A stretch of 56,587 nucleotides of DNA from positions 1-56,587 of the forward strand of contig JANYDA010000014.1 of assembly GCA_025360005.1 (NCBI GenBank). The letters are read 5' to 3'. Shown in pieces: positions 29,230 to 51,841 of the stretch. The notes under the pieces were generated by a model, which saw only the letters and a list, made by a program, of their open reading frames with translations, had not been told where the DNA came from and did not search any database. The DNA comes from Fibrobacteria bacterium. GTDB taxonomy: Bacteria > Fibrobacterota > Fibrobacteria > UBA11236. Both the position numbers and the translations under genes were made by a program. How positions within the stretch are numbered: the first letter of the stretch is position 1; every line of letters starts with the position of its first letter.

Positions 29230-30849
29230 ATGAAACAATCAAATTCTTGGTCCCTGGCTAAAATCGCATTGGGGGCGATTGGGATGTTCGCCTCGCTTCC
29301 CATCCTTGCATTCGGGCAGCTTCCCACCGGCGTTACCTTGGTTCCTTTCTACAACACCGCCCAGGTCAGCTTCGTGCGCGATACCGTGCGCACGGTTGGC
29401 ATGGTGGAGGTGCCGGGCAAACCGGAACACTTTTTCGTACTCGATCAAATGGGAGCGGTGTATTCGCTTTATCCCGATACCACGATTTCATATACCCCAG
29501 GCCAGATTAAAAACTACTCCAAGGCCACTATCGCCAATTTCCGGAGCCGGGTCAAACACAATCTGCGCAGCGAAATGGGAGCCTGGTCCCTGGCTTTCAG
29601 CCCCAACTTCCGCCAGAACCGTTATTTCTATCTCCTGTTCTTCGGATACAATACCGCGGCCTCGGACGGGATCCGCACCGACGGCTATGTCAACCTGGAA
29701 CGTTGGACCCTGGGCGCGGATTACCACACGGCTACCCGCGACACCACGATATTCCGATTCTATCACCAGGCGTCCTACGGGGTTTCCAGCATGGCATTCG
29801 GGCCGGATGGATTTCTCTACATCGGAACCTCGGTTTACTCGGAGGACGGCTGGGATACCACGACGGTAGCGCGGAAAATCCTGCGCATCGATGTGGATCA
29901 TCCCGACGGGGCGAACATGTATTCCATACCCACGGGGAATCCCTTCGCCAAAAGCGCCAATCCCGCGGTCCGCAAGGAGATCTACGCCTGGGGCCTCCGC
30001 AATGTATGGAGCATGGCCTTTGATTTCCAAACCGGCAAGCTCTGGGCGGGGGAAGTGGGCCAAGATCTTTACGAAGAGATAAACCTGATCGAGCCCGGAA
30101 AGAATTACGGCTGGGCCGATGGGGGAAATTCGGAGCCTTCCGCGAACGGATACGGAGTGCAGGGAAATTGCCAGACCGGATTCAGCGCCAAGGGATTGAC
30201 CTGCGGGAATCTGACCAACCCCACCTGGGTTTTTTCCCATACCGCCGCTCCTGCCATCAACTGCATCGTGGTGGGGCCCGCCTTTCGGGGCAACCCGGCC
30301 TCGCCTTTTTACGGCTACCACTTCGTAACCGACGTGCAGCGCAACCAGTTCTGGGCCATCAAGGAGGGCAGCGCTCCCCAACTGGTGGGACAGTCTCCCA
30401 CCTCCAACACGTCCAACAACGACGCCCATAACGGCATCGTAAATATCGCCGAGGATTCCCATGGCAACCTTTACGCCAGCGCGGTGGATTGGCATTTCAA
30501 CGGCACCATCGGTACCACCACCAATCCTTTGCCGCAGGGTGAGCAGATGTATCACGAGATTTACCGGCTGTCCCATCCGCAAATGACCCCGGCTACCACT
30601 CCCATTGCTTTCCGAGGCCCGGGCCTTCCGGCCATGCCTGCGTCCGATCGGCTGATGCTGAACGTCGGGTCCGGATCCTGGATCGGAATCCCTGAAGGAT
30701 TTTCCGGGCTGGAGATCTACAGTCTGCGGGGCCGGCTCGTCTGGTCTTACCGCGGGAAAAACCGCGCGAGCGGAACGGGTGGAGCGGCCGGGACAAGGAT
30801 TCCGGCCGGATTGGAAAAGGGAATCATGCAAGTGCGGTTCCTGCCTTGA
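29230..30849 (+). CDS. Sorbosone/glucose-dehydrogenase-like beta-propeller, exported
   Basis: A 539-residue exported protein, first gene of the operon. After a signal peptide ending LAFGQ comes a six-bladed propeller of the soluble PQQ glucose/sorbosone dehydrogenase type: EMGAWSLAFSPNF, SMAFGPDGFLYIG, RKILRIDV, EIYAWGLRNVWSMAFD, GEVGQDLYEEINLI and KNYGWADG. These enzymes oxidise aldoses or related sugars, usually with PQQ. The last ~75 residues form a beta-rich tail (LEIYSLRGRLVW...GIMQVRFLP) shared by other exported proteins in the window, probably a sorting or surface module. I chose ATG 29230 over the upstream TTG. The next gene follows after 25 bp. Confidence 0.85.
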   Translation: MKQSNSWSLAKIALGAIGMFASLPILAFGQLPTGVTLVPFYNTAQVSFVRDTVRTVGMVEVPGKPEHFFVLDQMGAVYSLYPDTTISYTPGQIKNYSKATIANFRSRVKHNLRSEMGAWSLAFSPNFRQNRYFYLLFFGYNTAASDGIRTDGYVNLERWTLGADYHTATRDTTIFRFYHQASYGVSSMAFGPDGFLYIGTSVYSEDGWDTTTVARKILRIDVDHPDGANMYSIPTGNPFAKSANPAVRKEIYAWGLRNVWSMAFDFQTGKLWAGEVGQDLYEEINLIEPGKNYGWADGGNSEPSANGYGVQGNCQTGFSAKGLTCGNLTNPTWVFSHTAAPAINCIVVGPAFRGNPASPFYGYHFVTDVQRNQFWAIKEGSAPQLVGQSPTSNTSNNDAHNGIVNIAEDSHGNLYASAVDWHFNGTIGTTTNPLPQGEQMYHEIYRLSHPQMTPATTPIAFRGPGLPAMPASDRLMLNVGSGSWIGIPEGFSGLEIYSLRGRLVWSYRGKNRASGTGGAAGTRIPAGLEKGIMQVRFLP

Positions 30850-30874
30850 GGAAACTTTTTGGGGAGGTAAGGTT

Positions 30875-31627
30875 ATGAGAAAAGGGATTTTGGCGATTCT
30901 ATTCCTGGCGCTGGCGGGAAGCCAAGCGGCGGCACAAGTGGCCAGGCCCAGCCCTTTCTGGTTCGGGAAGGTGGTCTCCACGGAACGTTCGCGGCAAGTG
31001 TTTGTCGGACTCAACGCCAACATGTGGATAATGTACGACCTGCCCCAGGCCGTTTTGTACCAGGCATGGAAGGGCGGCACCCTCGGCGGAAGCCTGGCGA
31101 CCGGAAGCCCCGCCGTTACTCCGGAATACTGGTTCAAGGGAGGTCCCCATTTCCCCCATATCTTTGTTCCTGCCGGGACGGATTATTTCCGCGATGGGGT
31201 AGGGGAATACTTCGCGAGCTATACCAAGCCGGCCGACATCGACACCTATTACACGAAATGGCCCAAGCAGCCTCTTAACTACAAGAACTGGGTGGTTATG
31301 AATGGCGCCGCGGACGTGGGAGCCAAGGTTCGGAACCGGGGATACAGCGTGCTCGGGAACGTCTTCACCTTGAAGTTCGGTTTGATCCTTCCCGATAACA
31401 GCGAGATCGCCGTAACGGAATCCCCGGAGTTTTCCGGCGCAAATGGAAAGAACAATCTGGTTCGCACATTTTCCTTTTCCGGAATCCCGGCAGGTTATCA
31501 AGTGCGCCTGCAACATCCCGGCGGCGCAGCCGCTTCATGGACAGTGACTTCCGGGCCGGCGACTTTGTCAGCCGGCGCCATGACACAAACCGCCAATGGT
31601 CAAACCGTTCTGACTGGATCGTGGTAA
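30875..31627 (+). CDS. Exported partner protein (cytochrome/dehydrogenase-associated domain)
   Basis: A 250-residue exported protein with signal peptide ending GSQAAAQ. Its core matches a domain seen fused to c-type cytochromes and sugar-dehydrogenase propellers in other bacteria: VGLNANMWIMYDLPQAVLYQ, AWKGGTLGG, then a C-terminal half with YSVLGNVFTLKFGLILPD and SWTVTSGP beta strands. It has no CxxCH motif of its own and no C-terminal sorting-like tail. GGGGAGG precedes the ATG. It sits 25 bp after the first propeller gene and 2 bp before the second. A scaffold or sugar-binding role in the complex is inferred, not shown. Confidence 0.65.
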   Translation: MRKGILAILFLALAGSQAAAQVARPSPFWFGKVVSTERSRQVFVGLNANMWIMYDLPQAVLYQAWKGGTLGGSLATGSPAVTPEYWFKGGPHFPHIFVPAGTDYFRDGVGEYFASYTKPADIDTYYTKWPKQPLNYKNWVVMNGAADVGAKVRNRGYSVLGNVFTLKFGLILPDNSEIAVTESPEFSGANGKNNLVRTFSFSGIPAGYQVRLQHPGGAAASWTVTSGPATLSAGAMTQTANGQTVLTGSW

Positions 31628-31629
31628 AT

Positions 31630-33459
31630 ATGAAACACATGCAATGGATGGCCACCTTCGCCCTCGCTCCTTTCGCTTTCGTCTCTTTAGCCTCCGCCCA
31701 GCGGCCCGGGGATAGGCAGAATCAAACCGCGATCAACCCCGCCTACTCGATTGAACACATCCGCCCTGCCGGCATGGGCTGGCCCATCGGCGGGATGGAC
31801 TGGCTATCCGATGGCCGTATGGTGGTGACGAGCTGGAAAGATCCTTACGGGGTTTTCATCATCAGCAATGCCGTCACCGGAAGCAGTCCCAAATCCGCTA
31901 CGGTAACCCAATTCGCCACCGGCTTGTCCGAAGCACTGGGCGTCAAGGTGGTGAACGACTCGATTTATGTGCTGGAAAAAGATCAGTTGACCTTGCTCCT
32001 CGACAATGATGGGGACGGCAAGGCGGATGAATACCGCGCGATCGCCTATGATTGGACCAAGTCGGTAAACGAAAAGGAATACGCCGTAGGCCTGGCCTTC
32101 GATGGAACCTATTTCTACGGAATCTTCGGCGATCCCACCATAGGCAGCGGCACTTCCATCGATCCCCAGCCGGCCGGTCGCCAGAATGGAACCATCCGCA
32201 TCCGTAAAAGCGACGGCTTGACGGAAGTGTTCACCGGCGGCATGCGCGTTCCGGGCGGCATCGATATGGCCTTTGGAAAGGTTTGGGCCACGGAGACGCA
32301 AGGCGGGTACCGCGTGTCCCACGTGCTTTACGTTCCGAAAATGGGGCGGTTCTATGGGCGTCCCGTCAATCCGGCTTCCATGTTCCAGCCGGCGGCGGCG
32401 TCCAGTCCTAATGTCAACCCGGATCCCTATACCAGCGCGGATGAAATGGCCAAGGTGGCCACGCCTTTTTCCGTGAACATTCCCTTCAAGAACACCACTG
32501 CATCCAAAGCCGGACCCTTGGGCCTGATGCGTTCGCCGGGCAATCCCGTGGAGCTGACCAAGGGGCCCTATGCGGGCCAGGTATTGATTCCCGAAGCGGA
32601 TAAGGAACTGAATGGGGAAATGACGCGCGTTTTCGTGGAGATGACGCAGGACGGCGAATATCAGGGAGCGGCTTTCCATTTCACTTCCAACACGGTATTC
32701 GAGGGCTCCGCGGTATTCAATTTGAAACCCGGCCCGGATGGGAATTTGTACGCGGGTGGAAACGGATCCTCCGGCGCGGGTTGGGGGCGGTTAACCAATA
32801 TCGGTCTCGATAGGATGAAGCTGACGGGCAACACCCCGTTCGACATCCTGGCCGTTCGGAACCTGGGGGCGAACAGCTTTGAGGTCCAATTCACGAAACC
32901 GCTCGCCGCCAGCCTCGGCACCAACGTCACCGCGGATTTGGTGGCGCAGAAATGGTGGGATAAGATCTCCGACAACTATGGCTGCTGCCGCGCCAACCTT
33001 ACCGACCTGACGGTGAGTTCGGCCACCGTGCAATCCGATCGCAGTAAAGTGGTCGTGACCATCAACGGCTTGACCTTGCACTGGATTTATTACCTGCGCT
33101 GGCTCGATGCCATCAAGTCCGAGCAAAACGAGACCCTGTGGGGCACGGAGGCCTGGTACACTTTGAACGCCTTCGGTCCCGCAACGGCCCCTACCGTCGG
33201 GCTCCGGAACAACGCCGCCCCGGCGGCCCATCCTTTCATCGCGAACCGGAGCGCATCGGGTTTGCGGGTGCAGGTGCTTTTCCAGTCCTCCGTTCCTTAC
33301 CGCGCCCAGATCACGGATGTCAGAGGCAAGCTTATCGCCGAACATGCGGGGCGGGGCTCGGAGGAATTTCTTTTCCCGCAGAACGCTTTGCCCATGGGCG
33401 TCTATGTCCTCAGAATAGAGTCCGGGAAAGAGGCGTATTCCAGTTTGGGATTTAGGTGA
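31630..33459 (+). CDS. Second beta-propeller dehydrogenase-like exported protein
   Basis: A 609-residue exported protein. The signal peptide ends SLASAQ. Propeller motifs include IGGMDWLSDGRMVV, LDNDGDGKADEYR, GGIDMAFGKVWATETQ and LKPGPDGNLYAGGNG, as in sugar-dehydrogenase-like propellers that lie next to haem proteins. Residues about 410-530 form an additional beta domain (FEVQFTKPLA..., WIYYLRWLDAIKS). The last ~75 residues are the shared tail (AQITDVRGKLIA...MGVYVLRIE). The start at 31630 is 2 bp after the previous stop; ATG 31642 is possible. It overlaps the next gene by 4 bp (GTGA). The PQQ or haem requirement is not evident. Confidence 0.78.
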   Translation: MKHMQWMATFALAPFAFVSLASAQRPGDRQNQTAINPAYSIEHIRPAGMGWPIGGMDWLSDGRMVVTSWKDPYGVFIISNAVTGSSPKSATVTQFATGLSEALGVKVVNDSIYVLEKDQLTLLLDNDGDGKADEYRAIAYDWTKSVNEKEYAVGLAFDGTYFYGIFGDPTIGSGTSIDPQPAGRQNGTIRIRKSDGLTEVFTGGMRVPGGIDMAFGKVWATETQGGYRVSHVLYVPKMGRFYGRPVNPASMFQPAAASSPNVNPDPYTSADEMAKVATPFSVNIPFKNTTASKAGPLGLMRSPGNPVELTKGPYAGQVLIPEADKELNGEMTRVFVEMTQDGEYQGAAFHFTSNTVFEGSAVFNLKPGPDGNLYAGGNGSSGAGWGRLTNIGLDRMKLTGNTPFDILAVRNLGANSFEVQFTKPLAASLGTNVTADLVAQKWWDKISDNYGCCRANLTDLTVSSATVQSDRSKVVVTINGLTLHWIYYLRWLDAIKSEQNETLWGTEAWYTLNAFGPATAPTVGLRNNAAPAAHPFIANRSASGLRVQVLFQSSVPYRAQITDVRGKLIAEHAGRGSEEFLFPQNALPMGVYVLRIESGKEAYSSLGFR

Positions 33460-34589
33460 GGAAAACCTTTCTCGCCTTTTGCGGGGCGCTTATCGGCGCC
33501 GCTGCGGCCCAGCCCACTTCCGCGACCAAAGCGGATTCCGGTTGGGTTTCCCTTTTCAACGGAACGGATCTCACCGGTTTGTACGACTACGTATCCGGAA
33601 CGGGTATGGTGGACGTCAACACCCAAACCAATTTCACGGTGCAATCCGGCATGATCCATGTGAATGGAAGCCCGGGCGGCTATCTCGGAACCATCCGGCA
33701 GTATTCCCATTACCATGTGCGCGTGGATTACCAATGGCCGGTGGGCACCGTCGCCAACGCGAATTCCGGGTTGCTGATCCATCTGGATAGCGCGGCCATC
33801 TTTTCCAAGGCCTTTACCACGGGCGGCAGGCCGCGTTCCATCGAAGTGAATTGCCGCCGGGATACCAATTTCCCCTGGAGCTTATGGTCGGCGGATAAAC
33901 TGGGTCCTTACATCACCACCACGGTAACGGCGATTCCCGCGGCGGGCGTTCCCGGGCAGTACAATCCGGCCGGAGTGGCCTGGACTGACGATCCCTGGGG
34001 TAGCGGCAACACCCGGGTCCTGACCGGTGATTTCCAGGCCAACCCTGAATTGCCCGTGGGCCAATGGAACCGCGGCGAAGCCTACTTGTATGGAGACAGC
34101 GGCACTTTCGTTCTGAACGGGCAGATCCGCACGCGGGGGCATAATTTCCAAACCCGCCTCAATGCCGCCAATGCCTCGCCGAGAATCGCCTGCACCAAGG
34201 GCAATATCGGTTTGCAATCGGAGGGGTTTCCCATCCTTTTCCGTAACTTCGAGATCATGGAACTGGACTCCATTAGCAATGTTCCCGTCCACGCCCGGCG
34301 CGGATGCACGGATAGAAGGGCGGCCAATTACGATCCACGCGGCATGGTGGACGACGGATCGTGTACCCCCACGGCCTTGGCCGGTAAAACCGGAACCCAA
34401 GAGGTAGGCGTCCGCTTCCTTTCCAACACCCTTGGCAATGCCTGGATCGCTTTCCCGCCCGGGTCCACCGCTATGCAACTTTTAAATTTATCCGGCCGAC
34501 CGGTAGGAGTCTACCCCCGTTCCGCGGCAGGTTCCCGCCTACCTGCCGGCTTGCCGCGTGGGGTGTTCGCGGTGCGATTTTTACCTTGA
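33456..34589 (+). CDS. DUF1080 (3-keto-glycoside hydrolase type) exported protein
   Basis: A 377-residue exported protein with a GTG start overlapping the previous stop. The signal peptide ends AAAAQ. The main domain (about 28-275) is DUF1080, a beta-jelly-roll family with members reported to act on 3-keto-disaccharides: GWVSLFNGTDLTGLYDY, YHVRVDYQWP, NANSGLLIHLD and GNIGLQSEGFPILFRNFEI. A short GCTDRRAANYDP/DDGSC motif follows (about 285-310), as in cell-surface proteins of Bacteroidetes and relatives. The tail has LLNLSGRPVGVY and GVFAVRFLP. If the propellers make 3-keto-sugars, this enzyme would cleave them (inference). Confidence 0.82.
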   Translation: MRKTFLAFCGALIGAAAAQPTSATKADSGWVSLFNGTDLTGLYDYVSGTGMVDVNTQTNFTVQSGMIHVNGSPGGYLGTIRQYSHYHVRVDYQWPVGTVANANSGLLIHLDSAAIFSKAFTTGGRPRSIEVNCRRDTNFPWSLWSADKLGPYITTTVTAIPAAGVPGQYNPAGVAWTDDPWGSGNTRVLTGDFQANPELPVGQWNRGEAYLYGDSGTFVLNGQIRTRGHNFQTRLNAANASPRIACTKGNIGLQSEGFPILFRNFEIMELDSISNVPVHARRGCTDRRAANYDPRGMVDDGSCTPTALAGKTGTQEVGVRFLSNTLGNAWIAFPPGSTAMQLLNLSGRPVGVYPRSAAGSRLPAGLPRGVFAVRFLP

Positions 34590-34615
34590 TGAATCTCACC
34601 CCAGCAGGAGTTAAA

Positions 34616-36052
34616 ATGGCCAGGTTTGGAACCCAGGTTTTGATTTTGTCGGCGGCGCTCGGCGTCGCGAATGCCGAGTTGGTGCGGCATCCGTTGAATG
34701 CGGGAGTGGCGTTTGAATACGGCCAGGTTTCCAAAGCCATCGACTTTTTCACCACTCCTCAGCAAGTCGATCAGTTCACCATCCACAAAACCTTGGGCTG
34801 GTTCGTTCAAAAGGCGACCGTCGACGAACGATTCGACATCACCATCGGCATGGGCGCCATGTTCTTCTACATGTTTCCGGAAGAAGGGTATGACTATTCC
34901 CGCTCACCCCAATCCGCAGTTTCCCTGACGGAAGCCTCCGGTGCTTACACTTTCGGCGATTTGCAAAATCCCAGTTTGAAAATCTCGCTCGGATTACTGC
35001 CCTATAAATACAACGAGGACTCAAAGAATTTGGGTGAATACCTCTTCCGATCCACCCCGTACCCGTCCACCACGGTCAATGGCGGCTGGGAAACGGTGAA
35101 CAGTTCCCGGGCGAAAATCTGGGGCGCCGTAGCGGAGAAAAACTTCTTCGATGGAAAGTGGAAAAACAATCTTCTCGTGACCATGAGCACGGTGTTTCCC
35201 CTTTACGACATCAGCCCCGCCTTCGTTACCAGTTATAAATTCGGCGGCATGTTGGAGCTGGGCGCGGGAGTCAATCTGTCCCACCTGATCCCGAACCAAG
35301 GCAAGGTAACGACGCCTAAAAGCAAGGGCGTTTACGACGCGTATTTCAACTATCAGGGAACCAACTACTACGCCAATAAATCCTATTACGATAAAATAGC
35401 CAGCTACTACGCCGATCCGGCGGGAGGAAACGATGCCGCCATCGCGGGTCAGTATACCGCTAAGGCTCTCTTGGTCGATTCCTTGAACAATGCGGTGGCC
35501 AAACCTTCCTACTCCTACTACACCGTGCAAGGCACCGAAGTAATGGGGCGGTTTTCCATGGATTTCAAACCCCTGCTGGGCGAAAACGCGGACTTAAAAA
35601 TTTACGGGGAAGCGTGCTTGCTGGGAGTAAAGAACTATCCCGTCTTTTACACGGACCCTTTGGAAAGAACGCCCATGATGCTGGGAGTGGATATTCCCAC
35701 CTTCCATATTTTGAACAAGCTGGCGGTGGAAGTGGAGTATTGGAAAAATCCGTATATCAACGATTATGCAAGCGAATCCGTGACAGGATGGGAGGTGGAC
35801 GCCCCGCTTCCGGATTATTCCCACGAAGTGGACGGCTTGCATATCGATCCTTCCAAGCCTTACACCAAGGACGATTTCAAATGGTCCGTTTTCGCCGAGA
35901 AATCCCTGGGCTCATCCTTTACAGCCTACGTCCAGGTGGCCCGTGATCACATCCGGCCCGTCTATGCGCTGAGTTCAAACCCGGTGCCTTCCGATATCCT
36001 TTTGGATAATAAGGGATGGTACTATGCTGCTCGCATCCAAATGGGGATCTAA
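34616..36052 (+). CDS. Putative outer-membrane beta-barrel protein
   Basis: A 478-residue exported protein with signal peptide ending GVANA. The mature sequence is rich in alternating aromatic and polar residues typical of outer-membrane strands (ITIGMGAMFFYMFP, ALLVDSLNN..., LAVEVEYWKNPYIND, SFTAYVQVARDHIRP) and ends WYYAARIQMGI. It has no sorting-like tail, unlike its operon neighbours, which fits membrane insertion. It could be a porin for sugar passage or the outer-membrane partner of the diheme cytochrome. GGAG lies 7 bases before the chosen ATG. No characterised family is recognised with certainty. Confidence 0.65.
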   Translation: MARFGTQVLILSAALGVANAELVRHPLNAGVAFEYGQVSKAIDFFTTPQQVDQFTIHKTLGWFVQKATVDERFDITIGMGAMFFYMFPEEGYDYSRSPQSAVSLTEASGAYTFGDLQNPSLKISLGLLPYKYNEDSKNLGEYLFRSTPYPSTTVNGGWETVNSSRAKIWGAVAEKNFFDGKWKNNLLVTMSTVFPLYDISPAFVTSYKFGGMLELGAGVNLSHLIPNQGKVTTPKSKGVYDAYFNYQGTNYYANKSYYDKIASYYADPAGGNDAAIAGQYTAKALLVDSLNNAVAKPSYSYYTVQGTEVMGRFSMDFKPLLGENADLKIYGEACLLGVKNYPVFYTDPLERTPMMLGVDIPTFHILNKLAVEVEYWKNPYINDYASESVTGWEVDAPLPDYSHEVDGLHIDPSKPYTKDDFKWSVFAEKSLGSSFTAYVQVARDHIRPVYALSSNPVPSDILLDNKGWYYAARIQMGI

Positions 36053-36076
36053 CGGTATTCTATGAGAGGTTTCACT

Positions 36077-37054
36077 ATGAAAAAATATTTGGCTTTCGCA
36101 TTCGCCCTGACGTGCGCGGCTTCGGCATTCGGGCAGTTCAACGATACCTTGTGGCACGATTTGTGGGGCGGGACCGGGCAAAAGGACGCCGACCTCACCA
36201 AGAGCTGGCGCGGCCTTCCTTCCATTTGGACGGTGCGGTATGCCAATACGGACACCGCCGAAATCTACGGCAACGGAACGCCGCCCACCAGCGCGCATAC
36301 CTTCCTGATTTACAAGTCGCTTTTGCTGGACTTTGAAGTGGAAGCCATGCAGAGGTTGCCCGGCACCACTACCAATAGCGGGATCCAAATGCGATCCGTA
36401 TGCTCAACTCCCGGAGACGCCATTCCTTGCGGCGCGACCTATACCGTCTACGGCCCCCAGGCCGACGTAGGCGCTACGCATAACGGGGAATTGTTCAACG
36501 AGCAGGTGGGCCCGCTCGTCAACGTCAATACCACGCCCGCCACCGGAACCAATTATATCAGCAGCGTGACGGCATGCCGTCAATCCCAAAAGGCCTATCC
36601 GCAGTGGAATCTCACCCGGGCCAGGGTGGTGGGCAATAAAATCGTCGGGTATTTGAACGATGTGAAATGTTACGAGTATACCATCGGTCCTACCCAGACC
36701 GATTGGCTTAAGGCCGGGATATTCGCTTTGCAATACCACGGGACCGGAGGCACGGTGGAGTACCGATCGATACGGATGAAGTCGTTGAACGTCTCGGTTC
36801 CCGTCGCCCCTGTTTCTCCGGCGGCCGCCGACAACCTGGAGGTGCAAGGCGGAAGGCAATCCTTTTCCTTCGGCATCAGGTCCCCGGGAAACTATACCGT
36901 TACCGTCGCGGATATCACGGGCCATTCGGTCAAAAGGATAACCGGAGCCGGGCCCGTGGCCGCAAAAACGGTGTCGCTGGCCATGCCGGGGCTCTATTGG
37001 GTCCGAATCACATCGGCCGGCGCCGTGTCCATGAAAAAGATTTATATAAACTAG
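36077..37054 (+). CDS. DUF1080-like exported protein with sorting-like tail
   Basis: A 325-residue exported protein; signal peptide MKKYLAFAFALTCAASAFGQ. The domain (about 25-235) is a jelly-roll of DUF1080/laminin-G type: FLIYKSLLLDFEVEAMQRLP, NSGIQMRSVC, GELFNEQVGP and a C-terminal FALQYHGTGGTVEYRSIRM, the usual DUF1080 closing strand. The tail is VTVADITGHSVK...GLYWVRITSAG. It is shorter than the DUF1080 protein two genes upstream and only distantly similar, so the pair may act on different linkages. The start is chosen from AGAGG; a longer start at 36062 is possible. The cytochrome gene follows after 9 bp. Confidence 0.78.
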   Translation: MKKYLAFAFALTCAASAFGQFNDTLWHDLWGGTGQKDADLTKSWRGLPSIWTVRYANTDTAEIYGNGTPPTSAHTFLIYKSLLLDFEVEAMQRLPGTTTNSGIQMRSVCSTPGDAIPCGATYTVYGPQADVGATHNGELFNEQVGPLVNVNTTPATGTNYISSVTACRQSQKAYPQWNLTRARVVGNKIVGYLNDVKCYEYTIGPTQTDWLKAGIFALQYHGTGGTVEYRSIRMKSLNVSVPVAPVSPAAADNLEVQGGRQSFSFGIRSPGNYTVTVADITGHSVKRITGAGPVAAKTVSLAMPGLYWVRITSAGAVSMKKIYIN

Positions 37055-37063
37055 GGAATCATC

Positions 37064-38539
37064 ATGAAAAAAGCCCCTCGTAAGTCCATCGGGTGGAAGA
37101 CGCATCGGCTCTTCGCCGCCATTCCGTCGCTTCTCCTTTTATCCGCCATCCAACCCGCTTGCGCGCGGCTGGTGCCGTCCCTCCTGAATTTCGACGGGAC
37201 CAACCCGGAAACCCTTCCCGCCAAATTGTCGCAAACCGGTTTGTACGATAACGTGGCTTCTCGCGCCCGCGCCGTCACCGCCGGCATCGTCGCCTTCGAG
37301 GTTAACACGCCGCTTTGGAGCGACGGCGCGCATAAGGAACGTTTCATCACCGTGCCCGCGGGTTTCAAAGTGACCCCCACCGACAGCGATCAATACCAAT
37401 TCCCCGACCAGACGGTTTTGATCAAGAACTTCCAGATCGATTCCGTCTACGGCGACTCCACCACGCGGTTCTTCATCGAAACCAGGTTCTTGGTCATCCG
37501 CCAATCCCAGTTCGGTTACCAGTATTTGGGGGTCAGTTACAAATGGTACCGGGACCAAACCGATGCGGAATTGGTAAGCCAGACCTCGGGACTGGATACG
37601 GTGCACCAAGTGAAATTCGCCGGGGCGGCAAAGGGCAAGCGTTGGCGCTATCCTTCCCAGGCGGATTGCGGCGCCTGCCATTTCAACCGGGGCGTTTTGG
37701 GTTTCCTGACTCCCCAGCTTAACCGGCCATCCAAGGCGAACCCGGGCATCAACCAACTGCAAGCCTTGGTGACGGCGAATATATTGACCGCGAATCCACT
37801 GGCCGGAAAAGCCGGCCCCACTTTCCGTTGGGTAGGGCTTACGGAGACGGGCGTTACGCCACCCTCGGGGATCTCCTTGGTGGAATGGAAAGCCCGTTCC
37901 TATTTCGCCGCCAACTGCTCCCAATGCCATGGGAATAACCATGCCAATACTTTTGAATCCGCTTCGCACGATTTCGATTTCCTCCATCCGGGACGGAGGA
38001 TTACCTATACGGAACCGGATACCATCGGCGGATTCGTAGGCAAACACACCAATGTGGATCCTAATTTCCCGCAATTGATTTATCGCGGCTTTCCGGAAAG
38101 TTCCTTTGTGATGGAGCGGATGATGTCGCGACCCACCGCTTTCAATACCTTGAGCCGGCAAATGCCGCCTTTGGCCACCTTCCAAATGGATTCCGCGGCG
38201 GCCAATGTCGTCAAGGATTGGATTTGCTCACTGGGGAGTCGCGGTTCCGCATGCAAGCTCCCGGCCGTGCAAACGGACAGCACCTATTGGGCTACGGGGC
38301 TTTATCACTATATGTTCCCTCGCTCACGCCCGGGTGCGCTGAACGCCTATTTCCATGGCAACCGATTGACCGTATCGGGACCGATAACCGCGAACCCTAC
38401 TCTGTCCGATTTCCAGGGCCGTGCCGTCAAAATGGTGAAGCTGGGCGGCGGGAATTACCTGATTGCATCCCCGCTTCGCTCGGGCATTTACCTGCTCAAA
38501 GTCGGTAGCGTCACGGCCAAAGTCAATTACTCGCCCTAA
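37064..38539 (+). CDS. Exported diheme c-type cytochrome (SO_2930-like)
   Basis: A 491-residue exported protein, last gene of the operon. Two haem attachment motifs are present: C202GAC205H206 and C285SQC288H289. The N-terminal part (LSQTGLYDNVA, FEVNTPLWSDGAHKERFI) is diagnostic of the SO_2930/HNE_0200 family of diheme cytochromes (TIGR03806, from memory), often encoded near dehydrogenase propellers. Met residues in RQMPPLATFQM could be axial ligands. The last ~70 residues are a sorting-like tail (LSDFQGRAVKMV...GIYLLKVGS). It is the likely electron acceptor for the propeller dehydrogenases. A dyad follows the stop. Confidence 0.88.
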   Translation: MKKAPRKSIGWKTHRLFAAIPSLLLLSAIQPACARLVPSLLNFDGTNPETLPAKLSQTGLYDNVASRARAVTAGIVAFEVNTPLWSDGAHKERFITVPAGFKVTPTDSDQYQFPDQTVLIKNFQIDSVYGDSTTRFFIETRFLVIRQSQFGYQYLGVSYKWYRDQTDAELVSQTSGLDTVHQVKFAGAAKGKRWRYPSQADCGACHFNRGVLGFLTPQLNRPSKANPGINQLQALVTANILTANPLAGKAGPTFRWVGLTETGVTPPSGISLVEWKARSYFAANCSQCHGNNHANTFESASHDFDFLHPGRRITYTEPDTIGGFVGKHTNVDPNFPQLIYRGFPESSFVMERMMSRPTAFNTLSRQMPPLATFQMDSAAANVVKDWICSLGSRGSACKLPAVQTDSTYWATGLYHYMFPRSRPGALNAYFHGNRLTVSGPITANPTLSDFQGRAVKMVKLGGGNYLIASPLRSGIYLLKVGSVTAKVNYSP

Positions 38540-42125: not shown

Positions 42126-43757
42126 ATGATGTTTGTAATACTACTGGCCCTATTGCTGCCATCCGTTCTCTTTTCCCAAATCTGCCCGGAGCCGGCGATC
42201 GCGGACTTCCATAAAGTCACCCTGGTTTCGGGCGGGATGGACCAAGCCGTCGACCTGGGGGTAACACCGGATGGACGGGTCTTCATCGCGGAGATGCAAA
42301 CCGGCAATATCCGCCTGTACCAACCCGGAATCGCGGGCATCGCCATTGTCGGAACCATACCCAATATTTTCTGGGTGTCCGCGGACGATGGCCTCATCGG
42401 GTTGGAATTGGATCCCGGGTTCATGCAGAACGGATGGATATACGTGGACTATTGCCGCAAGGCGGCTTTGGGATCGCGCGTTTTCCTCTCCCGGTTCACC
42501 TTCGCCAACGGTAAGATCGACATGGCTTCGGAAAAGATCCTCCTGAGTTTCGACCGCCCCGATCCGGGTGGCCATGCCGGCGGCGGTCTGGCCTTTGACG
42601 CGCAGGGAAACCTGTACCTGTCAACCGGCGATAATACCGGCCACGCAGCCAGCGAGGGATACGGAGCCTTGGACATCCGGGATTCCATTTTCGACGATCA
42701 GCGGTCATCCGCCAACACCAACGACTTGCGGGGAAAGGTGCTGCGCATCCATCCGGAAGACAACGGCAGCTATACCATTCCCCCCGGCAACCTGTGGGAA
42801 GCCATGCTCCCCGCGCCTTCCTCTGCGGAGGCCTCCAAAATGCGGAAAGAAATTTATGCCATGGGTTTTCGCAATCCGTTCCGGATATCGGTGGGATGGA
42901 ACGGAAACCTTTACATCGCAGACGTTGGGCCGGATGCGGTTAGCGCAAACCCTGTCCGGGGACCGGCCGGTTTCGACGAACTGGATATAGCAACCCGGCC
43001 CGGATTTTTCGGGTATCCCTATTGCATGGCCGATAACTTCGGGTATAACCGCCTCGCGAGCGTTGCCAATGGCGTCCCGACTTATGGAGCCGCCTACGAT
43101 TGCAGCAAGCCCATCGACAATAATTCCCCTTTCAACACGGGCATCAAGAGCCTTCCGGCCCCGGTGCCCGCCTCCATTTGGTACCAAGGCACCCGGCAGG
43201 ATTTTCCGGAAATGGGATCGGGGCCGGCAACCGTCATGGTGGGGCCCTTGTATCAATTCGATGCGCGCCTGAATTCCAAAGTGAAATTCCCACCCCAATT
43301 CCATGGCCGCCTTTTTTTCAGCGATTGGAGCCGCGGCACCCATGTCACGGTTTCTTTCACCCCCCAGGGGAGGGTGGCCAAGCTGACGCCATTCAATGTA
43401 GCCGGGAATTTGATGAAGCGCAGCGACGTCGCTTATCAATTCGGACCGGAAGGCGCTCTCTACGTTGTGCAGTATCCCAATGCCTTGTACCGGGTGGAAT
43501 ACGCGGGAGCCATCGATGCCGCCTGTTATCCGGCCACCACCGCTGTCAAAGGCAAAAGCGCCCATGGTGAAATGGGGCTCGACCTGAGGGATGGCGAACA
43601 ATGGCAAATGCCCCCGAACATCGGGGAGGCGGATTTCTTCGACCCGCGGGGGAAGAAAATCGCTTCCTTTCGCCGCAAGCCGGGTGAGATGGGATGGATC
43701 CGGATTCCGTACCCATCGGGTCTGGCCCCGGGATTGGTCCATGTCCGCTATTTCTAG
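42126..43757 (+). CDS. PQQ-dependent sugar dehydrogenase-like propeller, copy 1
   Basis: A 543-residue exported protein; signal peptide MMFVILLALLLPSVLFSQ. It is a soluble glucose/aldose-sugar dehydrogenase type propeller: VDLGVTPDGRVFIAEM, GLIGLELDPGFMQNGW, GGGLAFDAQGNLYLSTGDN, LRGKVLRIHP, EIYAMGFRNPFRISVG and NLYIADVGPD. The N-terminal blade and the STGDN/RNPF blocks are those that bind PQQ and calcium in characterised members. The tail reads ADFFDPRGKKIASF...GLVHVRYF. It overlaps copy 2 by 17 bp, and the two genes share long near-identical DNA stretches, so they are a recent tandem duplication. It likely oxidises a sugar in the periplasm or at the surface. Confidence 0.88.
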   Translation: MMFVILLALLLPSVLFSQICPEPAIADFHKVTLVSGGMDQAVDLGVTPDGRVFIAEMQTGNIRLYQPGIAGIAIVGTIPNIFWVSADDGLIGLELDPGFMQNGWIYVDYCRKAALGSRVFLSRFTFANGKIDMASEKILLSFDRPDPGGHAGGGLAFDAQGNLYLSTGDNTGHAASEGYGALDIRDSIFDDQRSSANTNDLRGKVLRIHPEDNGSYTIPPGNLWEAMLPAPSSAEASKMRKEIYAMGFRNPFRISVGWNGNLYIADVGPDAVSANPVRGPAGFDELDIATRPGFFGYPYCMADNFGYNRLASVANGVPTYGAAYDCSKPIDNNSPFNTGIKSLPAPVPASIWYQGTRQDFPEMGSGPATVMVGPLYQFDARLNSKVKFPPQFHGRLFFSDWSRGTHVTVSFTPQGRVAKLTPFNVAGNLMKRSDVAYQFGPEGALYVVQYPNALYRVEYAGAIDAACYPATTAVKGKSAHGEMGLDLRDGEQWQMPPNIGEADFFDPRGKKIASFRRKPGEMGWIRIPYPSGLAPGLVHVRYF

Positions 43758-45504
43758 CCGCGGAAAAAAAACCGGCCTTGGAGCGGTCGCCGGCGCCCCC
43801 AATCCACGCGGATCGGGATTCCCGGCCGCTGCAGCCCTCATCGCCGCAGTCGTGGCCGTATCGTTCCCGCGCGCTTTGTTTGCCCAAACCTGCCCGGAGC
43901 CCAAGGCCGCGGACTTCCGCAAGGTTGCCCTGGTCCAGTCCGGGATGGCGCAGCCCATAGACCTGGGGGTAACATCGGATGGACGGGTCTTCATCGCGGA
44001 GATGCAAACCGGAAATATCCGCCTCTACCAACCCGGAGTCGCCGGCACCACCATCGTAGGCACCGTTCCCAATATCTCCTATGTGAGCCAATGCGATGGC
44101 TTGGTGGGGCTGGAACTGGATCCCAGGTTCATGCAGAACGGATGGTTGTACGTGGACTATTCCCGCAAGGTGAACGGCGTAGCCCGGCTTTTCCTTTCCA
44201 GGCTCACTTTCGCAAACGGCAGGGTGGACATGGCTTCGGAAAAGATCCTTTTGAGTTTCGAGCGCCACGAACCCAGAAGCCATGGCGGCGGCGGCCTGGC
44301 TTTCGATGCGCAGGGGAACCTGTACCTTTCCACCGGCGACAATACTACGCCTTCCGGCAGCGATGGGTATGGAGCTTTCGATATCCGGGATTCCGCTTTG
44401 GACGACGAGAGATCGTCGGCCAATACCAACGACTTGCGGGGGAAAGTGCTGCGCATCCATCCGGAAGCCGACGGAAGTTACTCAATACCTGCGGGTAACC
44501 TGTGGGAAGCCATCCAGCCCGCTCTTTCCCTCTCGGAGGCGGCCAAGGTGCGCAAGGAAATCTTCGCCATGGGTTTCCGCAATCCGTTCCGGATCGCGGC
44601 CGGCTGGGACGGAAACCTGTATATCGCGGATGTGGGGCCCGTCGCCGCCAGCGATAATCCCGCCCGGGGACCCGCCGGCTTTGACGAATTGGACGTCGCC
44701 ACCCGGGCCGGATTTTTCGGGTACCCGTATTGCATGGCCGACAACCGGGGGTACAACCGGATCGCGGGTATTTCCGGGACAAACGTGACGTATGGTACAC
44801 CCTATGATTGCGCCAAAGCCATCGACAACAATTCCCCGTTCAACACCGGCCTCAAGACACTTCCTGCTCCCGTGCCCGCATCGGTATGGTACCAGGCCGG
44901 CCACAAGGATTTTCCGGAAATGGGTTCCGGTCCGGAAACCGCCGTCATGGGGCCGATGTACCGGTACGATCCCAACCTGGTTTCCAAGGTGAAGTTTCCG
45001 CCCCAATTCCACGGCCGCCTCATCTTCAGCGATTGGAGCCGGGGAACCCATGTTACCGTTGCCTTTCCCGGGCCCGGTAAGGCGGCCAGATTGACGGCAT
45101 TCAACGTATCCGACAACTCCCTCGATAAAAGCGATGTTGCCTATGAATTCGGGCCGGAGGGCGCGCTCTACGTACTGCAATACAGCGCTTTTGCCTACGC
45201 GGACAACAACAGCGCCCTTAGCCGGGTGGAGTATACCGGCGTTGTCGATCCGGCCTGCTTCCCCGCCGGCACCGAAGTCCGAAAGGGACGCCGGCCTGCC
45301 GACAGACTTTCGATCCGGCTGGATCCCGACTCGGAATGGCAATTGCCGCGGGAGGCATCCGGCGCCGACGCTTTCGATGCGAGCGGAAAAAAACTCTGGA
45401 CATATCATCGGAAGAACGAGAATCCGGAATCGATGCGGCTGCCTTTTCCGCACGGCGCGGCGGGCGGGCTCATCCGATTCCGGTATTTTTCAGACTCCGA
45501 ATAA
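43741..45504 (+). CDS. PQQ-dependent sugar dehydrogenase-like propeller, copy 2
   Basis: A 587-residue tandem paralog of the preceding gene. The N-terminus is longer (about 49 residues before QTCPEPKAADF) with hydrophobic stretch AAALIAAVVAVSFPRALFAQ acting as signal peptide. All propeller blocks match copy 1 (GLVGLELDPRFMQNGW, GGGLAFDAQGNLYLSTGDN, LRGKVLRIHP, MGFRNPFRIAAG). A small loop insertion near LQYSAFAYADNNSALSRVEY distinguishes it. The tail is ADAFDASGKKLWTY...GGLIRFRYF. The open frame extends upstream to 43591, but that overlaps copy 1. A hairpin (CCCGC 45510-45514 with GCGGG 45522-45526) follows the stop before the amidohydrolase gene. Confidence 0.87.
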   Translation: MSAISSRGKKTGLGAVAGAPNPRGSGFPAAAALIAAVVAVSFPRALFAQTCPEPKAADFRKVALVQSGMAQPIDLGVTSDGRVFIAEMQTGNIRLYQPGVAGTTIVGTVPNISYVSQCDGLVGLELDPRFMQNGWLYVDYSRKVNGVARLFLSRLTFANGRVDMASEKILLSFERHEPRSHGGGGLAFDAQGNLYLSTGDNTTPSGSDGYGAFDIRDSALDDERSSANTNDLRGKVLRIHPEADGSYSIPAGNLWEAIQPALSLSEAAKVRKEIFAMGFRNPFRIAAGWDGNLYIADVGPVAASDNPARGPAGFDELDVATRAGFFGYPYCMADNRGYNRIAGISGTNVTYGTPYDCAKAIDNNSPFNTGLKTLPAPVPASVWYQAGHKDFPEMGSGPETAVMGPMYRYDPNLVSKVKFPPQFHGRLIFSDWSRGTHVTVAFPGPGKAARLTAFNVSDNSLDKSDVAYEFGPEGALYVLQYSAFAYADNNSALSRVEYTGVVDPACFPAGTEVRKGRRPADRLSIRLDPDSEWQLPREASGADAFDASGKKLWTYHRKNENPESMRLPFPHGAAGGLIRFRYFSDSE

Positions 45505-45548
45505 GCAAGCCCGCCGTTTTTGCGGGTAAGATCGGCAGGTACGGCGAC

Positions 45549-46625
45549 ATGACTATCCGCATAGTGAAATTGTTTGGCTTGCTGGCGATCTTTTTCCCAC
45601 CGGCGATTTTTCCCGGTCCCATCCGCATTATCGATGCGTTTATCCACAGCTATGATCCCTTTCGTCCCCAAGGCGTGCCCTGGCCCGGCAAATCCGATAC
45701 CTTGCTGTACCGCACCGCCTTGCCCGCCGATCATGATCTGGTCGCCAAGCCCGTGGGAGTCACCGGCACCGTGGTGGTGGAATGCAGCGCTTGGTTGGAA
45801 GACAATCAATGGGTACTGGATCGCATCCAGAGCCGGCCCGACTATTATGGATTTGTGGGGAACCTCCCCATCGGGGTCCCCGAGTTCGCCGCCAACCTGA
45901 CCCGCTTCGCCAAGAATCCGAAATTCCTGGGAATCCGCCTGAGCACCCAGAAAGTGCAGAGGAAAAACCTGACGCCCGAGATCCTGCGGGACCTGCGCAA
46001 CCTGGCGTCCCACGGGCTGGCCCTGGAGTTCCTAATGGGCACCGGGCCCGGAAACACCCTTGACGACGTGGCGGCAGTGGCCTCCCAGGTTCCGGAGCTG
46101 GCCATCATGATCGATCACTTGGCCGGAATCAAAACCGACGGAACGCCTCCGCCCGCGACCGTGGTCAATTCCCTCAAGGCCGCGGCCGCATACCCGCGCG
46201 TGTACTGCAAGATCTCCAGTCTTCTCAACCATTCCGTGCAACAACCCGGGTCCCTCCAGGTGGCCTATTATCGGCCTTTGCTGACGGTGTTGGAACAGGC
46301 GTTCGGCGATGATCGTTTGGTCTACGGGAGCAATTGGCCCGTGTCCGATGCCGGCGGAACTTTCGCCCAGCAGCAAGCCGTGGTGATGGCCTATTTCCAG
46401 GCGCGGGGAGATTCCGCGCTGAACGACGTGATGTGGCGTAACGCCGTAAGGTTCTACCATCTGCCGGTACCCTTGCGGATTGCCACCCCGGCGTGGGGAA
46501 AAGGGGCGATGGAAAACAAGGTGACGGGCGATGTCCGTCTGGCCAATGGTGGCCTGGCCCAGCCGGATGAGGCGAAGCCGGAACGGCCCGTTTTCAGGCG
46601 GATACTCCACCCAACCAACCGGTGA
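45549..46625 (+). CDS. Exported amidohydrolase/lactonase-like protein
   Basis: A 358-residue protein of the amidohydrolase-2 (fuconolactonase/LigI-like) superfamily, preceded by a hydrophobic segment (IVKLFGLLAIFFPPAIFPG) that may export it. Family blocks are IDAFIHSYDPF, GIRLSTQKVQRK, MIDHLAGIK (D189, H190), YCKISSLL and YGSNWPVSD. The first metal-site His of the usual HxH is F31 (H33 kept), and the usual Asp of GSDWP is N262, so it may be metal-independent like some lactonases or altered. A lactonase next to sugar dehydrogenases would open the lactones they make (inference). It is 44 bp after copy 2. Confidence 0.75.
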   Translation: MTIRIVKLFGLLAIFFPPAIFPGPIRIIDAFIHSYDPFRPQGVPWPGKSDTLLYRTALPADHDLVAKPVGVTGTVVVECSAWLEDNQWVLDRIQSRPDYYGFVGNLPIGVPEFAANLTRFAKNPKFLGIRLSTQKVQRKNLTPEILRDLRNLASHGLALEFLMGTGPGNTLDDVAAVASQVPELAIMIDHLAGIKTDGTPPPATVVNSLKAAAAYPRVYCKISSLLNHSVQQPGSLQVAYYRPLLTVLEQAFGDDRLVYGSNWPVSDAGGTFAQQQAVVMAYFQARGDSALNDVMWRNAVRFYHLPVPLRIATPAWGKGAMENKVTGDVRLANGGLAQPDEAKPERPVFRRILHPTNR

Positions 46626-46751: not shown

Positions 46752-49346
46752 TTACTTCACAAGCCGTACGGTCTGGGTCAGGGCCCTGCCGTTGCTTCTC
46801 AATTTCACAAAGTAGATGGCATGGGAAAGGTTCTTCCCTTGCAGGCTTATCTGATTGATACCGGCGCTCCCATCGCGGGTGAGCGAAGCCACTTTTGCCC
46901 CCGTGATATCAAAGAGCGAAAACGTGTAGTATCCCGCCTTCGGTAGGTTGAAGCTCAGGGCGGCAGCATTGAATCCGACGATCTTGAGAACCGGATCTAT
47001 CGCTGTCTCTGAAACCACCGCGGCATTCACACTCACCGCAGCCTCCAAGGCGCGCGCCTGGGCGCCGGCCGCGGCGGAAGGTCCAAGTACCCGGAACTCG
47101 AAAATCGAGGCCCAATGGTTCACATCGGTCGCCGTGGACGTGACCCTAACGTACCGCGCGGTGGCCGAAAATGCATCCGCGAAAGTCTGGGCCGTGGTTC
47201 CGTTCGCGGTTTTGTTGACAACCTGGGCCCAAGCGGCGTTATCGCTGGAGGTTTCGATTTTATACTTGTAGGTCCAGGATTTCTCGAATACGATCTCGGT
47301 GCCCGTCAGGCCGTGATCGGCTCCCAGATCGATTTCCAGCCACTGGTTGGCCGTGCCGTTGCTGGCGCACCAGCGGGTGGTGGTACTATTGTCCTTTGCA
47401 TCGACAGCAACATGGGTCGTCTGCATGCTGCTTGCAGTCGCCGTGCCATTGAGAGAAAGGTTCACGGTTCCGCCGCCACCGCTGGTCACCGTGACGTTCA
47501 CCGTTGCGGAAGTGGTGCTTGCGCCCAGATTGTCCGTTGCGACAGCGGTGAGGCTATAGCTTCCCGCCGCGACATTCGCCCAGGAAAAGCCGTAGGGAGC
47601 GGTGGTAGCCGTGGAAAGCAAGGTGGAGCCCTGATAGAATTCCACTTTGGCCACGGAGCCATCCTGATCCGCCGCGTTCGCCGCGAGGGTTATGGTGGCC
47701 GGCGCGGTATAGCTAGCTCCATTCGCGGGCGCCGTGATGGAAACGGTGGGTGAAATATTCGCCGTGCCGGAGGCGGCCAGCCAGAGCACGGAGGGGACAT
47801 TGGACCAGGGCGCGGTCAGGTTCGGCGAGCCGTTGGTGAACGGCCCGGCGCTCTGCTGCTGCCCGGTGTAGGCATTCATCCATACCCCCTGCACTGGGGA
47901 GGCGGCTCCGGCGATGTTCAATGTGGTTGAGCCTCCATTGCTCAGATACACCATATATTCCGAACCCGCTTTGGCCATACAATGGTTTCCGGTTTTGTTT
48001 CCCAGCAGGTTGTCATTGGGAACCACATCGTACCATTTTGTCTGTTGGGTGAAGAAGCTGCTCAGGTACCCGTAGAACTTCAACCCGTTGGGCACCTCGT
48101 AAGTCTTCACCACGTCCCAGGCATGGTAGGTATAATAGTAGGCAGGATATCCGCCGGCCATCAGAACCTCGTAGGTCCACTTCAAAACCTGTTCCTTGGA
48201 CTGGACGCTGGAGTAGGTATGCCCGCCATCGTTGCCGATCTCATAGCCCAGTTCCGCATTGTAAATCGGCCAGTTTTTCTGGTTCCGTTGGCCAATTACG
48301 GTGCTGTACTGAGCGGATTGCTGTTGATCGGTGCGGAAATCCATGTTGGTGTTCAGGGCGGGATCCCCGGCATAATCGTGCCCTTTACCCAGGTCATCAT
48401 GGGTGGTGCGCAATCTTTTATAGGCGTCTTTGGCGGTGATCAGGTTCAACATCCGATGGATATACGCATCATCGGGCTCATTGTAGGACTCCTTGGAAAA
48501 GCTCCAGATGATGTTGGGATAGGCCTGGTAACGGGCGGTAATAGTGGCGAAATACAAAGAATCATCCTTGGATCCCTTGGTCGGCCAGTTGACGAGCTTA
48601 TTGTAAACCTTGAAGTATATGTAAGCCACCATGCCTTTTTGGTACAGATAGTCGATGACCTTGTCGTAATGATCCCAATAGGCCGTATTCAGCCGGGAAT
48701 GATCCGGAGAGGCATTCGTGCCGGCCCATGCGTATATGTCGGGCGGTCCGAAATCGTCCGCGCTGGTTTTTCCGGTTTTCCACGAGGTATCCCAGGCATA
48801 CCCGTTCATATTGATGGCGGTGAATCCACGCGCTGCGTACATGTCGATTATCTGCTTCGGCTTTGTCAGGGTCGCATCGCTGGTTTGCATCAGAGCAAGC
48901 CAGTTTATCTCGCCGCCCATGAGGAAATACGGGGTCCCATCCTCGAACCGGAAATGATGGGGATTCGCCGCATCGACGGCGAGCCTTCCATGGACGTTCG
49001 CCTGCGTGTTGGCCACGCAATTGACGCTGCCGGAGACGTTGCTCAGATTGGCATCGGGCGAGGACGTGACATAGGTCCAGTTTCCGATCTGAGTAGGCGC
49101 GAATCGGACCTTCCAGGTATTGCCGCCGATGTAGAACCCGGGGATTTTGAGAGTGACGTTTCCCGGTCCCGTGAAGGTGGCGTCCATAGTAACATCCTCG
49201 AAGGGATTGGCGAAAGAGGTCGAAGTCGTAAAGGAGAGATCGACGGGATGCCATTGCTCCACATCCGCCTGCGCGGATAACATCATGATCGCGACGATCC
49301 AAATCGCGCTTTTCAAGCAGTGAAATTTCCGACTCATTAAATTCAT
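46752..49346 (-). CDS. DUF5060/DUF4038 glycosidase with Ig and F5/8C modules
   Basis: An 864-residue exported enzyme. The signal peptide ends MMLSAQA. Domains: DUF5060 beta-sandwich (about 25-110; VEQWHPVDLSF, GFYIGGNTWKVRF), DUF4038 TIM barrel (about 115-430; HHFRFEDGTPYFLMGGE, YWDHYDKVIDYLYQKGMVA, FSKESYNEPDD, WPIYNAELGYE), a C-terminal barrel-associated beta domain (GVWMNAYTGQQQSAGPF), an Ig-like domain (about 530-625; VSITAPANGASYTAP), an F5/8 type C/CBM32-like domain (about 635-770; ATASSMQTTHVAVDAKD, RYVRVTSTATDVNHW) and the sorting-like tail (FSLFDITGAKVASL...AIYFVKLRS). Related enzymes cleave pectic or glycosaminoglycan-like side chains; the substrate is unknown. GAAAGG precedes the chosen ATG. 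Confidence 0.83.
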   Translation of the reverse strand: MNLMSRKFHCLKSAIWIVAIMMLSAQADVEQWHPVDLSFTTSTSFANPFEDVTMDATFTGPGNVTLKIPGFYIGGNTWKVRFAPTQIGNWTYVTSSPDANLSNVSGSVNCVANTQANVHGRLAVDAANPHHFRFEDGTPYFLMGGEINWLALMQTSDATLTKPKQIIDMYAARGFTAINMNGYAWDTSWKTGKTSADDFGPPDIYAWAGTNASPDHSRLNTAYWDHYDKVIDYLYQKGMVAYIYFKVYNKLVNWPTKGSKDDSLYFATITARYQAYPNIIWSFSKESYNEPDDAYIHRMLNLITAKDAYKRLRTTHDDLGKGHDYAGDPALNTNMDFRTDQQQSAQYSTVIGQRNQKNWPIYNAELGYEIGNDGGHTYSSVQSKEQVLKWTYEVLMAGGYPAYYYTYHAWDVVKTYEVPNGLKFYGYLSSFFTQQTKWYDVVPNDNLLGNKTGNHCMAKAGSEYMVYLSNGGSTTLNIAGAASPVQGVWMNAYTGQQQSAGPFTNGSPNLTAPWSNVPSVLWLAASGTANISPTVSITAPANGASYTAPATITLAANAADQDGSVAKVEFYQGSTLLSTATTAPYGFSWANVAAGSYSLTAVATDNLGASTTSATVNVTVTSGGGGTVNLSLNGTATASSMQTTHVAVDAKDNSTTTRWCASNGTANQWLEIDLGADHGLTGTEIVFEKSWTYKYKIETSSDNAAWAQVVNKTANGTTAQTFADAFSATARYVRVTSTATDVNHWASIFEFRVLGPSAAAGAQARALEAAVSVNAAVVSETAIDPVLKIVGFNAAALSFNLPKAGYYTFSLFDITGAKVASLTRDGSAGINQISLQGKNLSHAIYFVKLRSNGRALTQTVRLVK

Positions 49347-49379
49347 GGGTGCCTTTCTGTGAGCGTGTATCGCCCACCC

Positions 49380-49445
49380 AAGATATAGGCGTAACATACT
49401 TGTAACGGTTACGGTATCGGTACGGGATATAAACAATCGTACTCC
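49380..49445 (-). promoter_or_regulatory. Palindromic region upstream of DUF5060 gene
   Basis: GTAAC-G-GTTAC (49402-49412) is a perfect 11-base palindrome in the presumed promoter of the minus-strand DUF5060 gene. Another GTAAC half-site lies upstream at 49391-49395. The half-site resembles GTAACA at 8419, but a common regulator is not established. Confidence 0.35.
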
Positions 49446-49575
49446 TGCGGGAACGGGTTCAGCCCGATGTCGCGGAATCTTCTATGAGATGGGTTTGGAA
49501 GTGATGGGTGAAGTAGAGGAGGGGTAAAACGGATTCCGCCAAAGGCGAAACCCGATCGCTTGAACTTTTTCGTTT

Positions 49576-51399: not shown

Positions 51400-51841
51400 G
51401 ATATCGACCTTTCCGTGATATTCCAATTTCAACTTGGAAAGTAGGCTTAGGACCAGCACTGCAAGCCTGAAATTGCTGGGTGGACAAATCGCCGTACTCT
51501 TAAGGAAACGGGTTATGAGTAATGAAAATGCCTATTCACTATTGAATATCATCTCTTCCGGAAAGAGCTTCCCGGAAACGTCGGGCTCTCGAAAAAGCCC
51601 GGTTACCCGATAAAATGTCGAGCTCCGCAAACGGAGCCGAAGACCGATTCCTAATGCTACCCTGGAATCCCTTGCTTGCATTCGGAAACACAAGGGTGAA
51701 CGACAAAAGCGCTGCTCCGGGCGCAGCGCTTTCCGGTTGTCGCTATGATTGGGAAGGCGTTTCCGGGTATCCTCCCATACCTTTGAACGGCCGGGGATAA
51801 CGGCCCGGGCACCCGGCTACGGCCGAAACAAGGGGATGGAT
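51400..51841. other. Divergent intergenic region with a hairpin
   Basis: No gene is seen. The spacer separates the short DUF5060 paralog from the alginate-lyase-like gene and must contain both promoters. AAAGCGCTGC (51706-51715) pairs perfectly with GCAGCGCTTT (51723-51732), about 110 bp before the plus-strand gene; it may be a leader structure or operator. GGGCT/AGCCC repeats lie near 51582-51602. Confidence 0.45.

Follow-up and report, generated by a model that had tools for sequence, protein, structure and literature searches.

The window analysed here is one entire contig (JANYDA010000014.1; 56,587 nucleotides) of a 5.0-Mb genome from Fibrobacteria bacterium; the genomes compared are metagenome-assembled genomes (MAGs). 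Between positions 29230 and 38539 it carries seven codirectional open reading frames (ORFs), p1 to p7, on the forward strand, with no internal stops and with gaps of exactly 25, 2, -4, 26, 24 and 9 bp. The original prediction had described this layout, which we confirmed, as an exported operon for sugar oxidation and electron transfer. p1 (29230..30849) is an exported beta-propeller with the glucose/sorbosone dehydrogenase (GSDH) fold, belongs to a clade without the usual histidine (YHQASYGVSSMAFGP) and ends in an 'RFLP' tail. It is followed by p2 (30875..31627), a 250-aa exported partner protein matched by no family and predicted to be beta-rich in its C-terminal half, and by p3 (31630..33459), an exported propeller akin to Piru_Ver_Nterm/DUF7133 proteins of the Planctomycetota-Verrucomicrobiota-Chlamydiota (PVC) group, with a weak Por tail and no CxxCH. 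p4 (33456..34589; GTG start) is an exported PF06439 protein (DUF1080, the 3-ketoglycoside-hydrolase family) with an RFLP-type tail, p5 (34616..36052) a predicted porin-like outer-membrane beta-barrel from a large family, and p6 (36077..37054) an exported PF06439 protein with a type A sorting tail of the type IX secretion system (T9SS). The last gene, p7 (37064..38539), encodes an exported SO2930-type diheme c-type cytochrome with a weak Por tail.

Neighbourhoods in relatives were compared using hidden Markov models (HMMs) built from these sequences. Among 168 genomes of the phylum, homologues of p2 and members of TIGR03806, the family of p7, were confined to the window's own order. In G160, which represents another genus, we found an operon p1-p2-p3-p4-p1b-p5-p5-p6 (gaps: 30, 10, 6, 166, 79, 0 and 26 bp) whose gene order and strand agree with those of the window for six of the seven families; the identities were 59, 58, 59, 52, 44 and 31% for p1 to p6, respectively. 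Gene order is therefore conserved beyond this genome, within one Fibrobacterota order; a lack of such conservation had been named as refuting the original prediction. Two sub-modules were distinguished. Sub-module A (p2-p3-DUF1080a) stands alone in G163, G161 and G157:C62. The p2-p3 pair lacks p4 in G162, G156 and G154; in G156 three barrels lie upstream of it and a DUF1080a gene is found on the other strand, and G154 has two tandem copies of the pair. The arrangement is DUF1080a-cytochrome-p2-p3 on contig C49 of the window's own genome and cytochrome-p2-p3 at G157:C66. Sub-module B combines the His-less GSDH propeller, the porin and DUF1080b in varying order; it occurs alone at G163:C2 (a contig that also carries A, 60 kb away), G158:C78 and G155:C92, and partially at G157:C175 and G154:C300. 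Judged by gene order, the conserved unit is the sub-module and not the seven-gene set.

On balance, and with slightly more confidence than doubt, we read the locus as a modular operon, belonging to one order of Fibrobacterota, whose exported products process carbohydrates at the cell surface; it is put together from sub-modules A and B. The best reading of its function is a variant of known DUF1080/propeller loci, in which modular surface processing and uptake of glycosides would be joined by an optional cytochrome. The T9SS-tailed propellers and PF06439 hydrolases would work jointly at the outer surface, with glycosides or oligosaccharides as substrates, p2 would bind the p3 propeller, the porin p5 would import the released sugars, and the diheme cytochrome, added in this lineage, would accept electrons if a dehydrogenase step occurs. 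Gene content, conservation and modularity, the export signals, SprA, the lost canonical His and the haem motifs are observed, and the porin-like fold is a prediction; we infer the substrate class, the hydrolase activity, the p2-p3 binding and any redox step.

Export is consistent with all seven N-termini, each of which has a basic and hydrophobic stretch followed by an A-x-A-like site (heuristic assessment); signal peptides had been predicted for every product. Five products had also been credited with tails resembling surface-sorting signals. This holds for p6, the sole one of the seven to pass the cut-off of TIGR04183 (3.9e-6); the tails of p3 (0.001) and p7 gave weak matches below it, and the 'RFLP' tail common to p1 and p4 matches no model. 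The SprA protein of the T9SS is encoded in the genome (TIGR04189 over cut-off, 621.9 bits across the whole frame), which supports the view that this system would be available for surface display.

PF06439 was matched well above its gathering score of 26.8 by both p4 (2.4e-21, 77.1 bits) and p6 (5.3e-17, 62.9 bits), and a relative of p4 was found in the PDB (3u1x, E=0.0046). Members of this family include the 3-ketotrehalose hydrolase BT2157 and, near LacABC, a lactose-fitness gene that is a genetically supported 3'-ketolactose hydrolase candidate (PMC9007349). The matches support the assignment of p4 and p6 to the 3-ketoglycoside-hydrolase family, and they are putative hydrolases. The LacABC and DUF1080 loci of Caulobacter and Pedobacter likewise place an exported PF06439 protein beside a dehydrogenase module, with the same proposed logic of oxidation and hydrolysis (PMC9007349). 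They differ from the present locus, where propellers missing the canonical catalytic His stand in place of LacABC and where T9SS tails, a porin, p2 and two PF06439 proteins are found.

p5 matched no known family. An AlphaFold2 (AF2) model from a four-sequence alignment has about 16 long strands, and in Foldseek searches of the PDB its best 50 matches were all outer-membrane proteins, nearly all of them porins (OprD/Occ, OprB, OmpF and AlgE). Both families are greatly expanded, with 8-53 PF06439 matches and 13-50 first-look candidates of the barrel family per genome (G000, the window's own, and relatives). A PF06439 gene lay within 3 kb of a barrel-family gene at about 27 of 76 listed loci, compared with ~1.6 expected under random placement; these counts are approximate, among the matches listed, and the genomes are related, so that the p-value overstates independence.

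No match to p2 was found in Pfam, NCBIfam, PHROG or the PDB, and Foldseek gave no hit under E=0.5 for its AF2 model (pLDDT 60). p3 gave weak matches to the propeller models TIGR02604 (1.5e-5) and PF23500 (2.8e-5). Sequence searches of the PDB with p2, p3, p5 and p7 yielded no meaningful match. Distribution beyond Fibrobacterota was judged via degenerate peptide patterns, and a single genome-contig scan was made with p2; no p2 relatives were found among plasmids, and a scan of viral contigs with p3 gave no match. Within the order, p2 lies immediately upstream of a p3 homologue in 10 loci and at G157:C66. In the planctomycete UBA6172, a single ORF combines a haem domain (TIGR02603) with a stretch resembling p2 and a propeller resembling p3; p3 is 31% identical to this fusion protein. 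The fusion is evidence for joint action of p2 and p3, in which a haem protein may also take part. The present locus shares the p3-like propeller and the p2-like domain with the fused Piru_Ver_Nterm/TIGR02603 haem proteins of the PVC group (Planctomycetes; both lie in one protein in UBA6172), but encodes them in separate genes, has a p3 without CxxCH and draws its haem domain from another family, TIGR03806. A candidate fusion of cytochrome and p2 at G157:C66 was rejected; the ORFs are merely adjacent and in different frames. The tandem duplication of the p2-p3 pair in G154, the most distant genus, lies at 7373-12816 of L142 (G154:C314).

The original prediction took both propellers to be of dehydrogenase type. 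In the soluble glucose dehydrogenase (sGDH) of A. calcoaceticus, His144 is the likely base and Arg228-Asn229 lie at the ketones of pyrroloquinoline quinone (PQQ), and in AA12 enzymes the catalytic His is not strictly conserved (PMC6881810). p1 is a GSDH protein (PF07995, 1.5e-27, over cut-off) that matches 2ism in the PDB by sequence (8.5e-17); His is present at the catalytic position in 2ism as well as in 3das. When p1 was aligned with the GSDHs of these genomes, we found Tyr at the position of His144, and the Arg-Asn pair was retained (GLRN). In all 12 members of the p1 clade, Tyr, Phe, Pro or Val replaces His, Arg-Asn is kept, and an invariant His is found exactly four residues upstream of the lost one. 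A branch with support of 100/99 (bootstrap 100) separates these 12 proteins from the remaining 23 GSDHs in the tree, all of which have His. p1 thus has the fold and Arg-Asn pair of sGDH/GSDH proteins (PF07995, AA12-like), but differs from them in its substituted base, its upstream His and its T9SS-like tail. Ten p3 homologues showed no invariant His at all. Together with the distribution of PqqC (below), these results make a quinoprotein role less likely, and they cast doubt on the oxidation step that had been proposed, the usual catalytic histidine being absent from the propellers. A retained active site is suggested by the Arg-Asn pair and the extra upstream His, both strictly kept in the p1 clade.

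p7 matched TIGR03806 (SO2930) over nearly the full profile length (1.2e-43), with 149.5 bits, below the curated cut-off of 313.3, which none of the 168 phylum genomes reached. It has two haem motifs, CGACH at residue 202 and CSQCH at residue 285. The near-full-length match and the two CxxCH motifs are shared with SO2930 diheme cytochromes, from which p7 differs in its score below the cut-off, its sorting-like tail and its placement with p2, p3 and PF06439 proteins. In the operons of the sister genus (g2), no TIGR03806 gene was found within or adjoining, and G162 had no match to the family. Order-wide, TIGR03806 genes mostly adjoin GSDHs of the His type and are sometimes fused to them (g1 and g3 likewise), and many have no member of the seven families nearer than 4 kb. 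On the strength of the absence from g2 operons and of the association with His-type GSDHs, we regard the cytochrome as an optional partner in the operon and not as the fixed component that had been assumed. Fusion of these domains elsewhere, which had also been claimed, was borne out by single ORFs of 1548 or 2095 aa that join GSDH and TIGR03806 and by the planctomycete ORF described above. At L066:5853-10499 and L058:12911-19198, giant ORFs for exported proteins carry parts resembling GSDH together with TIGR03806 parts; the one in L066 has CBM6, CBM35 and ricin-lectin domains too.

Electron transfer across the outer membrane, as suggested by the original prediction, found no support. Like MtrCAB-type conduits, the operon pairs a barrel with a cytochrome, but p7 has two haems instead of about 10, a decahaem gene is absent from the operon, and the p5 barrel is akin to 16-18-strand diffusion porins (low-confidence model). 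Of the proposed envelope complex, the conserved multi-gene module, the predicted porin-type barrel and the DUF1080 proteins are supported, and the assignment of both propellers as dehydrogenases and the fixed place of the cytochrome are not. We found no paper linking DUF1080 with sorbosone dehydrogenase and a cytochrome, which, in a limited search, is weak evidence of novelty.

The propellers may instead be non-catalytic scaffolds that bind carbohydrate or protein. The locus would then serve plain surface binding, hydrolysis and uptake, and the cytochrome would be unrelated and serve nearby His-type GSDHs. Two GSDHs that retain the canonical catalytic His, and after them an amidohydrolase (PF04909), are encoded at window positions 42126-46625 (+), 3.6 kb downstream of p7. 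This set resembles a C1 oxidation and lactonase unit and is a candidate for the true partner of p7. The clade-wide loss of the catalytic His fits such scaffolds, as does the presence of the Hedgehog-interacting protein (HHIP), a non-enzymatic protein with the GSDH fold, among the sequence matches of p1. The strict retention of Arg-Asn and of the upstream His argues otherwise, as does the joining of the cytochrome to p2-p3 on C49 and at G157:C66. We consider this explanation possible but on the unlikely side.

We consider a dedicated oxidative complex rather unlikely. In such a complex, glycosides would be oxidised by the propellers with the help of PQQ or a similar cofactor, the DUF1080 proteins would hydrolyse the resulting keto-products, and the electrons would reach the diheme cytochrome and might cross the outer membrane. 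We examined the supply of PQQ. Among the 11 genomes of the order, PqqC is encoded in the window's own only and is absent from the ten relatives, including the operon-bearing G160. It lies at ~3846-8994 of L173 (G000:C65) with a PqqB-like ORF (read from sequence) and a PQQ-protein-like ORF. Each of the 11 genomes has 8-73 GSDH matches, although PqqC was found in one; cells without PqqC could scavenge PQQ. With PqqC, the cytochrome and the Arg-Asn pair all present, this genome could allow an oxidative step. Further points in its favour are the LacABC and DUF1080 logic of other phyla, the variable His of AA12 and the position of the cytochrome as last gene, 9 bp downstream, together with its two other occurrences beside p2-p3. 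Against it stand the lost His144 equivalent, the p3 family without an invariant His, the distribution of PqqC and the operons without the cytochrome. Moreover, sGDH-type enzymes oxidise at C1 and not at C3.

A more specific version would be a propeller-based, T9SS-delivered surface counterpart of LacABC. Here a re-wired GSDH clade, its His moved four residues upstream, would oxidise glycosides outside the cell, the PF06439 pair would cleave the keto-sugars, the porin would import the products and the cytochrome would drain the electrons; we regard this as speculative and distinctly improbable. A chance run of exported genes with no functional link hardly merits belief: each family has several copies per genome, so that some proximity is expected, but the six-family order is repeated in another genus and the adjacency of barrel and PF06439 genes is strongly enriched.

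Several findings weigh against the modular carbohydrate-processing operon that we favour. Four of the five sorting tails are weak or unmodelled, the porin fold of p5 comes from a model of low confidence (pLDDT 47), and the binding of p2 to p3 is drawn from synteny and one fusion protein. The merged A+B operon was seen in two genomes only. In addition, the PF06439 member THTE_1561 is an endo-xanthanase/lichenase (PMC9007349).

With its domains in separate genes, the locus would be a compact test case for the function of propeller-DUF1080-cytochrome proteins of PVC and Fibrobacterota-Chlorobiota-Bacteroidota (FCB) bacteria. It offers two natural sub-modules for comparison, one GSDH clade in which the catalytic His is replaced in a defined way, and a large uncharacterised porin family tied to PF06439 enzymes, and could explain sugar use by uncultured Fibrobacterota.

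A promoter scan of the locus gave a number of sites not above that in shuffled sequence. Two hairpins were seen 3' of p7, and a terminator was rejected there since their folding was not better than that of shuffles. Elsewhere in the window, positions 3298-6957 (+) encode a 1219-aa protein that reads as a CheB/CheR-histidine-kinase fusion-like protein. Positions 46752-51459 (-) encode a pair of exported paralogues of the DUF5060/apiosidase-like type, of which one has F5/8 and a Por tail, and an alginate-lyase-family gene lies after this pair at 51749-53182.

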